Assembly: GCA_025457745.1 (NCBI GenBank)
Contig: JALOTT010000001.1
Span: 1-37,592, forward strand
DNA: 37,592 bases
Source of the DNA: Verrucomicrobiota bacterium
GTDB taxonomy: Bacteria; Verrucomicrobiota; Verrucomicrobiia; Limisphaerales; JADLHS01
Direction: 5' to 3'
Shown: positions 28,667-34,540 of the stretch, piece by piece
Position numbering within the stretch: position 1 is the first letter of the stretch
Layout: each line of letters opens with the position of its first letter
Translations under genes and position numbers: made by a program
Notes under the pieces: model-generated
What the model was told of the DNA's origin: nothing
Seen by the model: only the letters and a program-made list of their open reading frames with translations
Databases searched by the model: none

Positions 28667-29338
28667 ATGAACTCCTGGACTCCAGAAACGATCTCCGCCG
28701 CCAACGCGGAGCTGCGCGACAAGTCCGCGCTGGACATCGTAAAGTGGGCCATCGTCCAAGCCAGAGGCCGCGCCATCGTCTCCACAAATTTCCGGCCTTA
28801 CGAAGCCGTCATCCTGCACCTCGCCACACAAGCGCAGCCCGACATCCCGGTACTTTGGGCCGACCACGGCTACAACCGCCCCGCGACCTACAAGCACGCG
28901 GAGCAGTTGAAAAAACAGCTTAAACTCAACCTCAAAGCCTACGTGCCAAGGATGACCGCCGCGCACTACGATGCGATTCACGGCGGCGCGCCCGCGCCCA
29001 CGCCGGAAAACGAGGAGCGCATCAAGGAGTTCAGCGCCGTGATGAAGCTCGAACCGTTTCAGCGCGGCATGAAGGAACTCGCGCCAACCATCTGGCTCAC
29101 CGCGCTCCGCAAGGTGCAGAACCCAAATCGCGCCAATCTCGACATCGTCGTCGCCGACGGCAATTTCAACACGATCAAGGTCAGCCCCGTCTTTTACCGG
29201 AGCGACGCGGACATGGAGAATTATCTCAAGCAACACAACCTGCCAAACGAGTGGGATTACTTCGACCTCGCGAAAGCCGATGAGAAGCGCGAGTGCGGCT
29301 TGCACGCGGCGTGGGGCGGGAAGGCCTTAGAAAATTAG
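28667..29338 (+). CDS. cysH: Phosphoadenylyl-sulfate reductase family protein
   Basis: PAPS-reductase-type N-terminus, VLWADHGYNRPATYKHAEQLKKQLKLNLKAYVPRMT, ECGLHAAWGG near the C-terminus; within cys cluster. Confidence 0.85.
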   Translation: MNSWTPETISAANAELRDKSALDIVKWAIVQARGRAIVSTNFRPYEAVILHLATQAQPDIPVLWADHGYNRPATYKHAEQLKKQLKLNLKAYVPRMTAAHYDAIHGGAPAPTPENEERIKEFSAVMKLEPFQRGMKELAPTIWLTALRKVQNPNRANLDIVVADGNFNTIKVSPVFYRSDADMENYLKQHNLPNEWDYFDLAKADEKRECGLHAAWGGKALEN

Positions 29339-29369
29339 ACACGGATTTCACGGATTATCACGGATTCAT
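29337..29369. repeat. Left 33-bp inverted arm flanking GxxExxY gene
   Basis: AGACACGGATTTCACGGATTATCACGGATTCAT; 31/33 match to reverse complement of 29743-29775. Confidence 0.95.
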
Positions 29370-29371
29370 TT

Positions 29372-29746
29372 ATGCCAGAACTGCTTTATCGCGAGGAGAC
29401 GCGGCAACTCATCGGCTTTTGCATGGAAATTCATCGTGAATTGGGCAAGGGACATGATGAAGTCATCTACAAGGATGCGTTGGTGGTGGAATTGAGCCGG
29501 GCAAACATTCCGATCGCCCGCGAAAACAAATACGAAGTGAAATACAAGGGTGTGGTTCTCCCTCATTCCTATCGGGCGGACTTCGTGATCTGGAACAAAG
29601 TGTTGTTTGAAGCGAAAGCGGTAGAGGCGCTGACCGACGCCCACATCAAACAGGTTTTGAACTATCTGGCCGCGTCCAAGCTCCGGCTGGGATTGCTTGT
29701 TAATTTCGGCGCCGATTCACTAGAATGGAAGCGCGTCATTTTATGA
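29372..29746 (+). CDS. GxxExxY family protein
   Basis: LIGFCMEIHRELGKGHDEVIYKDALVVELSRANIPIARENKYEVKYKGVVLPHSYRADFVIWNKVLFEAKAVEALTDAHIKQVLNYLAASKLRLGLLVNFG. Confidence 0.92.
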   Translation: MPELLYREETRQLIGFCMEIHRELGKGHDEVIYKDALVVELSRANIPIARENKYEVKYKGVVLPHSYRADFVIWNKVLFEAKAVEALTDAHIKQVLNYLAASKLRLGLLVNFGADSLEWKRVIL

Positions 29747-29775
29747 ATCCGTGTCAATCCGTGAAATCCGTGTCT
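29743..29775. repeat. Right 33-bp inverted arm flanking GxxExxY gene
   Basis: ATGAATCCGTGTCAATCCGTGAAATCCGTGTCT. Confidence 0.95.
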
Positions 29776-29777
29776 CA

Positions 29778-30713
29778 ATGAGTTCGTATCACCTGGATCA
29801 CCTGCAGTTTCTGGAGACGGAAGCGATTCACATCATGCGTGAAGTCGCCGGCGAATTTGAGCGCCCATCGCTCTTGTTTTCGGGCGGCAAGGATTCCATC
29901 TGCCTGCTACGCCTCGCGGAGAAGGCCTTTCGTCCGTCGGACATTCCGGTGCCGTTTCTCAACATCGAAACCGGCCACGAATTTCCCGAGTTGCTGGAAT
30001 TCCGTGATCGCCGCGCGAAAGAACTCGGCGCGAAGCTCATCGTTCGCACGGTGGAGGAAGCCATTGCCAAGGGCGCCGTTCCAGCGCCCGGCGAGGTCAG
30101 CCGCAACAAGCTTCAAATTCCCGCTTTGCTGGGCGCGATCGAGGAATTCCGGTTCGATTGTTGCATCGGCGGCGCGCGGCGCGATGAGGAAAAGGCCCGC
30201 GCTAAGGAACGGTTTTTCAGTCCGCGCGACAACTTCGGCCAGTGGGATCCTAAAACCCAACGGCCGGAAATCTGGAATCTTTACAATGCCCGGCTGAACA
30301 CCGGCGAAAACATGCGGGTGTTTCCGCTGTCGAACTGGACGGAAATGGACGTTTGGCAGTACATCAAGAAGGAAAACCTCGCCGTGCCGAGCATCTACTT
30401 CAGTCACGAGCGCGAGTGCTTCCGCCGCAATGGGCAATGGCTGCCGGTCCCGCCACCGCACACTAATTCGTCCAGGCCCGATCCTTACGACGGTGCGCGG
30501 CCGAAACCGAACGAGCAACGCGCCCAGCTTGTCGTCCGCGTGCGCACCATTGCCGACATGATCAGCACCGGCATGATCGAATCCCGCGCGGACAGCGTGG
30601 ACGACATCATTGTCGAAGTCGCCGCCGCGCGCGTAACTGAACGCGGCTCGCGCGCCGATGACAAAGCCAGCGAAGCGGCGATGGAAGACCGGAAGAAAGC
30701 CGGTTATTTTTAA
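29778..30713 (+). CDS. cysD: Sulfate adenylyltransferase subunit 2
   Basis: LDHLQFLETEAIHIMREVAGEFERPSLLFSGGKDSICLLRLAEKAF..., AVPSIYFSHERECFRRNGQWLPV. Confidence 0.95.
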   Translation: MSSYHLDHLQFLETEAIHIMREVAGEFERPSLLFSGGKDSICLLRLAEKAFRPSDIPVPFLNIETGHEFPELLEFRDRRAKELGAKLIVRTVEEAIAKGAVPAPGEVSRNKLQIPALLGAIEEFRFDCCIGGARRDEEKARAKERFFSPRDNFGQWDPKTQRPEIWNLYNARLNTGENMRVFPLSNWTEMDVWQYIKKENLAVPSIYFSHERECFRRNGQWLPVPPPHTNSSRPDPYDGARPKPNEQRAQLVVRVRTIADMISTGMIESRADSVDDIIVEVAAARVTERGSRADDKASEAAMEDRKKAGYF

Positions 30714-30866
30714 CCACTAATGGACACGAATATACACGAATCAATTTTTGCAGGTAGGGCGCGTCACTCCGTGCGCGCCGATCACACGAGACCAAACCCC
30801 GGCGCGCACGGAGTGACGCGCCCTGCCAAGAATAGTTCGCGTCCATTCGTGTTCATTCGTGGTTGA
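30712..30866. repeat. Composite palindromic element between cysD and cysN: outer CACGAAT-phased arms, inner 28-bp hairpin
   Basis: Inner GGTAGGGCGCGTCACTCCGTGCGCGCCG (30753-30780) pairs with CGGCGCGCACGGAGTGACGCGCCCTGCC (30800-30827), 27/28; outer AACCACTAATGGACACGAATATACACGAAT and GTCCATTCGTGTTCATTCGTGGTT. Confidence 0.9.
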
Positions 30867-34332: not shown

Positions 34333-34361
34333 CACCGATGACACACAACGTAATTCGACTT

Positions 34362-34507
34362 TCATTAGCACCTGGCTTTAGCCAGGTGTCTAATGCGGGC
34401 GGAGCGGAAAAACCGTTTCAACGGTTTCTTCGTGCGGGCAGCAAACCTTTGAAACGGTTTGCGCGTTACGTCGTCGCAAACACCCGGCTGAAGCCTGGTG
34501 CTAATGA
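34362..34507. repeat. Palindromic TCATTAGCACCTGGCTTTAGCCAGGTGT element between nuoL and following gene, with nested AAACCGTTTC hairpins
   Basis: Left arm 34362-34389 and right arm 34480-34507 are largely complementary; inner AACCGTTTCAACGGTTTC and AAACCTTTGAAACGGTTTG. Confidence 0.85.
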
Positions 34508-34540
34508 GATAGGCGATGTGATAATCAATGGAGGCGTGGC

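Follow-up and report, generated by a model that had tools for sequence, protein, structure and literature searches.

What kind of element places one small nuclease-like gene between two inverted arms inside a sulphur-assimilation operon, and how did it come to lie there? The question is raised by a 439-base cassette (29337–29775) that occupies all of the DNA separating the stop codon of cysH from the start of cysD in a Verrucomicrobiota bacterium. The window, that is, the entire stretch of DNA analysed, comprises the first 37,592 nucleotides of contig JALOTT010000001.1 (assembly GCA_025457745.1), and the features under discussion are listed in Table 1.

Table 1. Positions in the window of the cassette, the adjoining host genes, and the neighbouring gene-less element.
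Feature	Position	Strand	Basis or remark
cysH, upstream host gene	28667..29338	+	Stop codon overlaps left arm
Left arm	29337..29369	+	Repeat search; CACGGAT x3 at 29340, 29349, 29359
GxxExxY gene (TIGR04256/PF13366), 124 aa	29372..29746	+	Profile match, fold, catalytic residues
Right arm, inverted	29743..29775	-	Repeat search; ATCCGTG x3 at 29747, 29757, 29766
cysD, downstream host gene	29778..30713	+	ATG start 2 bp past right arm
Gene-less sibling element, CACGAAT arms, between cysD and cysN	30714..30863		Arms 30714-30741, ~30834-30863

A repeat search of the window gave two arms of 33 nt each, complementary at 31 of 33 positions (94%) and 373 nt apart. Their local alignment score is 27, whereas the highest score reached by any of 500 doublet-preserving shuffles was 13. 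The left arm begins within the cysH stop codon (TAG, 29336–29338), and the stop codon of the GxxExxY gene (TGA, 29744–29746) lies inside the right arm. The arm identity, the two stop codon overlaps, and the 2-bp gap to cysD described in the initial annotation were thus confirmed by the search and the shuffles. The spacing of the CACGGAT units, previously given as 10–11 bp, was measured as 9 and 10 bp, and the associated idea of one unit per helical turn holds in part, but the units range from 8 to 12 bp over the GxxExxY family. No Rfam family match was found within the window.

Other palindromes are present in the same region. A G+C-rich palindrome of another repeat family (TAGGGCGCGTCACTCCGTGCGCGCC and its mirror) is nested in the CACGAAT element between cysD and cysN, at ~30750–30827, and one resembling it is seen at locus L066 (2741–2821). 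A further palindromic structure (CACCTGGCTTTAGCCAGGTG with its mirrored copies) lies in the spacer after nuoL (window 34340–34510); in three other genomes (G001, G005, and G006) a GxxExxY gene lies between two palindromes in the spacer after nuoL (L179, L185, and L196).

In profile searches, the window ORF matched TIGR04256 (GxxExxY) with 134.1 bits against a cut-off of 35, and PF13366 with 121.9 bits against 22. Residues E30, D70, E80, and K82 make up a complete PD-(D/E)XK site and are invariant in 39 aligned sequences; E30, D70, and K82 are also invariant in 19 more divergent GxxExxY sequences. The predicted structure has a pLDDT of 94.4, and its best fold match is Cas4 SSO0001 (E 3.5e-5, TM ~0.6), followed by other RecB/lambda-exonuclease folds. 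The protein is accordingly modelled as a minimal, stand-alone RecB/Cas4-like PD-(D/E)XK nuclease, with its predicted catalytic residues intact. It is the only ORF of the cassette, which encodes no DDE, HUH, or other transposase of known type. A Holliday-junction resolvase was considered and dropped: T7 endonuclease I was the sole PDB sequence match (E 0.31, not significant), and by fold Cas4, RecB, and lambda exonuclease ranked at the top, with a Hjc only 38th. The viral matches of the protein include a PD-(D/E)XK nuclease encoded by a haloarchaeal tailed virus, and none of the phage records has a GxxExxY protein.

The architecture recurs widely. Arms were scored by aligning the upstream flank of a gene with the reverse complement of its downstream flank, and a score of at least 13 was taken to represent arms. 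In the first sample (69 GxxExxY loci, taken from 57 genomes that belong to the same taxonomic order as the window), arms are present at 54 loci (~79%), with a median score of 19; the controls gave 4.5% for mismatched flanks and 0.9% for displaced intervals in the same loci. The second sample consists of 80 loci with named organisms from several phyla, derived from a narrower search around the window protein. Arms are present at 69 of these, and in most the word is CAC(R)(R)ATT or closely similar to it; such arms range over Verrucomicrobiota, Bacteroidota, Ignavibacteriota, and Cyanobacteria. The mismatched-flank control is 18% in this sample, because the arm word is shared, and the sample is smaller than it appears, because one orthologous site in Flavobacterium, a single old insertion, accounts for 20 of the loci. 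The expectation that arms would be found near other GxxExxY genes is therefore borne out at most of them. The protein is also present in 8 plasmid records; among the six opened, arms at threshold were found in Bacteroides and Sphingomonas, and the others have short arms or none.

Loci of PF05635, a four-helix bundle family, were chosen because this family names the 23S rRNA intervening-sequence protein. Arms are present at 28 of the 41 loci (controls: 2.1% for mismatched flanks and 1.4% for displaced intervals), with a period of 7 bp in 25 of the 28, 8 bp in two, and 14 bp in one, and with words that differ from those of GxxExxY. The periods of the GxxExxY arms are 8 (13 loci), 9 (19), 10 (16), 11 (4), and 12 bp (2), and never 7 bp. 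A second PF05635 set from across the phylum has arms at 15 of 30 loci, with periods of 7 (11) and 8 bp (4). No Rfam (rRNA) match was found in the 40 loci searched around four-helix genes. A composite form, in which a gene lies between two complete palindromes and not simple arms, is also seen (L168, L170, L172, L179, L084, L085, and L099); at L099 a single gene-less element supplies both palindromes, as near-identical copies in direct orientation.

The arm word is coupled to the protein. The sharing of arm 5-mers tracks protein identity, with a Mantel r of 0.43 for GxxExxY and 0.61 for PF05635 (0/2000 permutations), pairs from the same genome and pairs sharing the cys site being excluded. Another GxxExxY clade has the arm words CGCAAAGA and AACTCAGG. 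At the orthologous Flavobacterium site, the outer units of both arms agree at both variable positions in 18 of 18 species, among which four different arm words occur. Because the arms match in spite of the four words, the two arms change together; the permutation count at this site is not a probability, because the species are related. The initial annotation had suggested that the arms are a protein-binding array, perhaps for the encoded protein. This coupling of arm word and protein clade fits that view, and we infer from the sequences that the protein may bind and cleave its own arms.

Gene-less copies of the arms are numerous. The 4.37-Mb assembly to which the window belongs contains CACGRAT-N1-5-CACGRAT 71 times and the reversed pattern 0 times. 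Array pairing gave at least six gene-less inverted pairs in this genome, one of which lies between cysD and cysN of the same operon. Elsewhere in the genome, a CACGRAT-type arm lies on the assembled side of the GxxExxY loci of contigs C340 and C430. The C248 locus is flanked by CAAAGACG units at one end and the C371 locus by CCAACGGATG units at both; three of these contigs start inside or beside the GxxExxY gene. C371 carries a 281-aa ORF (L040, 2250–3062; genome G000) with a tandem pair of GxxExxY domains, flanked by inverted CCAACGGATGAAAAGTG-like units.

When the arms and flanks of another cassette (L079) were searched in its genus, more than 40 matches, nearly all of them arms, were found in its own genome (G008), 16 in all in G007, and 2–6 in four other congeners. 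The median number of CACGRAT arrays is 10 in genomes with GxxExxY and 1.5 in those without (p 0.013). G002 and G033 have 62 and 29 such arrays, respectively, and no detectable GxxExxY gene. Gene-less arm copies far outnumber cassettes, and most of them may be inert. On contig C111 of G021 (L302 and L303), CACGGAT palindromes are dense (~35–40 array matches in ~21 kb), some being near-identical copies 180 bp apart.

The arrangement cysH-GxxExxY-cysD, which might have been ancestral and invariant, is not invariant: many relatives have an empty spacer or another occupant. The cysH|cysD spacer is empty (0–33 bp) at L103–L106, L113, and L125–L129. It holds a gene-less palindrome at L107, L110, L115, L119, L120, and L131 (L109 is less clear), a four-helix cassette at L112, L114, L118, and L121, and a GxxExxY cassette at L102, L108, and L117, and also at L093, L202, and L203. 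Members of a single genus differ in this respect: the spacer is empty in L103 and L104, contains a palindrome in L107, and contains a four-helix cassette in L112. At least 17 state changes are counted on a CysD tree of modest support. A protein with 74% identity lies in cysD|cysN instead (L208), and members of the same clade (L204, L205, L207, and L209) are at other sites, some of which, by eye, precede a valS-like start.

A weakly supported branch (56/86) separates the GxxExxY proteins of the cys operon from the others; therefore a single old arrival followed by many losses is possible. Between the window and L202, however, the cassette protein is 88% identical and CysD 78%, which counts against pure vertical descent. 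The turnover of the spacer favours the earlier description of the locus as a minimal mobile cassette, but the cassette at the cys site looks old and not freshly moved. In the genus of G008, neither a recent insertion with an identical empty site nor a target duplication was caught; one of the two elements compared there has a neighbour gene that is not conserved, and the other lacks a clear empty site.

Inserts of other kinds are also seen in the relatives. By eye, the cysD-cysN spacer holds a two-gene insert resembling an antitoxin and PIN-domain pair at L124 and L125, and a nucleotidyltransferase-like pair at L112 and L120. L203 comes from a metagenome-assembled genome labelled Akkermansia muciniphila, the CysD and GxxExxY of which are identical to those of G018 over the compared parts; the label looks wrong.

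The cassettes tend to be co-directional with their neighbours, which were called crudely, by the longest open frame. For GxxExxY, downstream neighbours are on the cassette strand in 18 of 20 cases and upstream neighbours in 17 of 22; for PF05635, the numbers are 8 of 8 and 10 of 12. Both neighbours are co-directional in 5 annotated plasmid records, including fabD-GxxExxY-fabG in Sphingomonas. Such co-direction may arise from read-through expression, from an RNA step, or from the removal of opposed insertions. In the predicted RNA fold, the window arms pair as a terminal stem.

With a probability of roughly 0.6, the best reading is that the cassette is a minimal insertion element belonging to a widespread family, the nuclease of which recognises the arms of its own element and works in trans on copies that lack the gene. 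The basis of this reading is the architecture, its recurrence across phyla, the unit length specific to each gene family, the link between word and clade, the joint change of the arms, the intact catalytic residues, the turnover of spacers, and the gene-less copies in the same genome. Points against it are that no fresh insertion was caught, that the cys-operon cassettes may stem from one old arrival, that G002 and G033 have arrays with no detectable gene, and that no known transposase is encoded. Three other explanations have to be weighed against it. The element might act at the RNA level, its arms forming a transcript stem cut by RNase III as in rRNA intervening sequences, and its ORF being cargo or acting on RNA. 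The predicted terminal stem, the covariation of the arms at the Flavobacterium site, and the co-direction with neighbours (18:2 downstream) are all consistent with this, and there is a precedent in Coxiella, where RNase III cuts a 428-nt intervening sequence out of the rRNA; this sequence codes for S23p and has both a terminal stem of 28 bp and, upstream of the ORF, three tandem heptamers (PMC4990558). Pairing alone, however, explains neither the conservation of CAC(R)(R)ATT across phyla within one protein clade nor the repetition of words inside an arm, and the protein has a predicted DNA-nuclease fold with catalytic residues. We therefore regard an RNA-level element as unlikely.

Still less probable is that the arms are ordinary REP- or MITE-like extragenic repeats, spread by some other enzyme, between which GxxExxY genes were merely caught. 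Gene-less arrays do outnumber genes by far, even in genomes lacking the gene, and composite palindrome-gene-palindrome structures occur; but the contrast between bounded genes and displaced intervals (~79% versus 0.9%), the dependence of unit length on gene family and of the word on protein clade, and the excess of arrays in gene-bearing genomes all speak against chance capture. An immobile host gene with regulatory inverted repeats of its own would account for the old vertical persistence at one Flavobacterium site and for the weak single group of cys-operon proteins. This explanation is largely refuted by the occupancy data, since the spacers of relatives are empty or differently filled; close relatives are, moreover, at different sites, and there are dozens of gene-less copies. 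It is considered highly improbable.

If the cassette is an insertion element, each inverted arm, with about three copies of a word of 8–11 bp, would be bound by the encoded protein, which would bring the paired ends together and cut there. Copying or movement into spacers immediately downstream of stop codons would follow, for the cassette itself and, in trans, for gene-less palindromes. In the polycistronic mRNA, the arms would pair into a stem enclosing the ORF, as those of 23S rRNA intervening sequences do, and this stem would perhaps make an insertion within an operon tolerable.

The 23S rRNA intervening sequences (S23p/PF05635; Coxiella, Leptospira; PMC4990558) are architecturally the closest known elements. 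Like the cassette, they are ~430 nt long with one small ORF, have paired terminal inverted arms with tandem short repeats in the arm, and are presumed selfish. Unlike them, the cassette lies in a protein operon and not in rRNA, its ORF is a TIGR04256 PD-(D/E)XK nuclease and not the S23p/PF05635 four-helix bundle, and its units are of 9–10 bp and not heptamers. The four-helix cassettes outside rRNA do have 7-bp units and are of the same plan as the Coxiella intervening sequence; the window cassette is a sister type outside rRNA.

Other known systems share fewer traits. MITEs and their parent insertion sequences likewise combine gene-bearing with many gene-less copies having common terminal inverted repeats, but the cassette has no DDE transposase, no target duplication was seen, and its arms consist of tandem words that vary by element. 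In REP/RAYT systems, intergenic palindromes are also linked to a small single-gene enzyme; RAYTs, however, are Y1 tyrosine transposases (PMC3733652), whereas the cassette enzyme is of the PD-(D/E)XK type and its arms lack a GTAG or CGTC tag. The TAACTGA heptamer repeats of Beggiatoaceae and others are similarly short tandem words in intergenic regions, near start codons and within operons, but are described as direct repeats with neither an inverted partner nor an enclosed gene (PMC4679880). It may be, as a guess, that they are a solo-arm state of the 7-bp type. The window protein resembles Cas4/RecB in its predicted fold and E-D-ExK active site. It is only ~60% of the length of SSO0001, its single cysteine in 124 residues leaves no room for the four-cysteine iron-sulphur cluster of Cas4, and its operon has no adjoining cas genes.

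A broader proposal is put forward tentatively, as possible and not as the favoured outcome. These elements would form a separate class of transposable elements, namely single-gene cassettes moved by a stand-alone RecB/Cas4-like nuclease, for which the short words of the paired inverted arms would serve as a phased recognition array. These words would drift between elements, with both arms and the protein changing along, and the unit length would be set by the protein family (8–11 bp with the nuclease and 7 bp with the four-helix protein); of the four-helix type, the 23S rRNA intervening sequences would be the part already known.

A very large number of genomes have annotated GxxExxY proteins. 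No paper on GxxExxY cassettes was found in the literature searched, which covered few subscription journals, and the cassette family is apparently undescribed. The present analysis provides GxxExxY proteins with a genomic context and with a directly testable candidate substrate, their own arms. It also places the 23S rRNA intervening sequences, whose origin has been a question for decades, alongside a larger group of cassettes in intergenic DNA, and points to a candidate source for the palindromic short-word repeats scattered across many bacterial genomes. With protein and arms changing in step, the family would be a natural series in which to study how recognition by a nuclease shifts.
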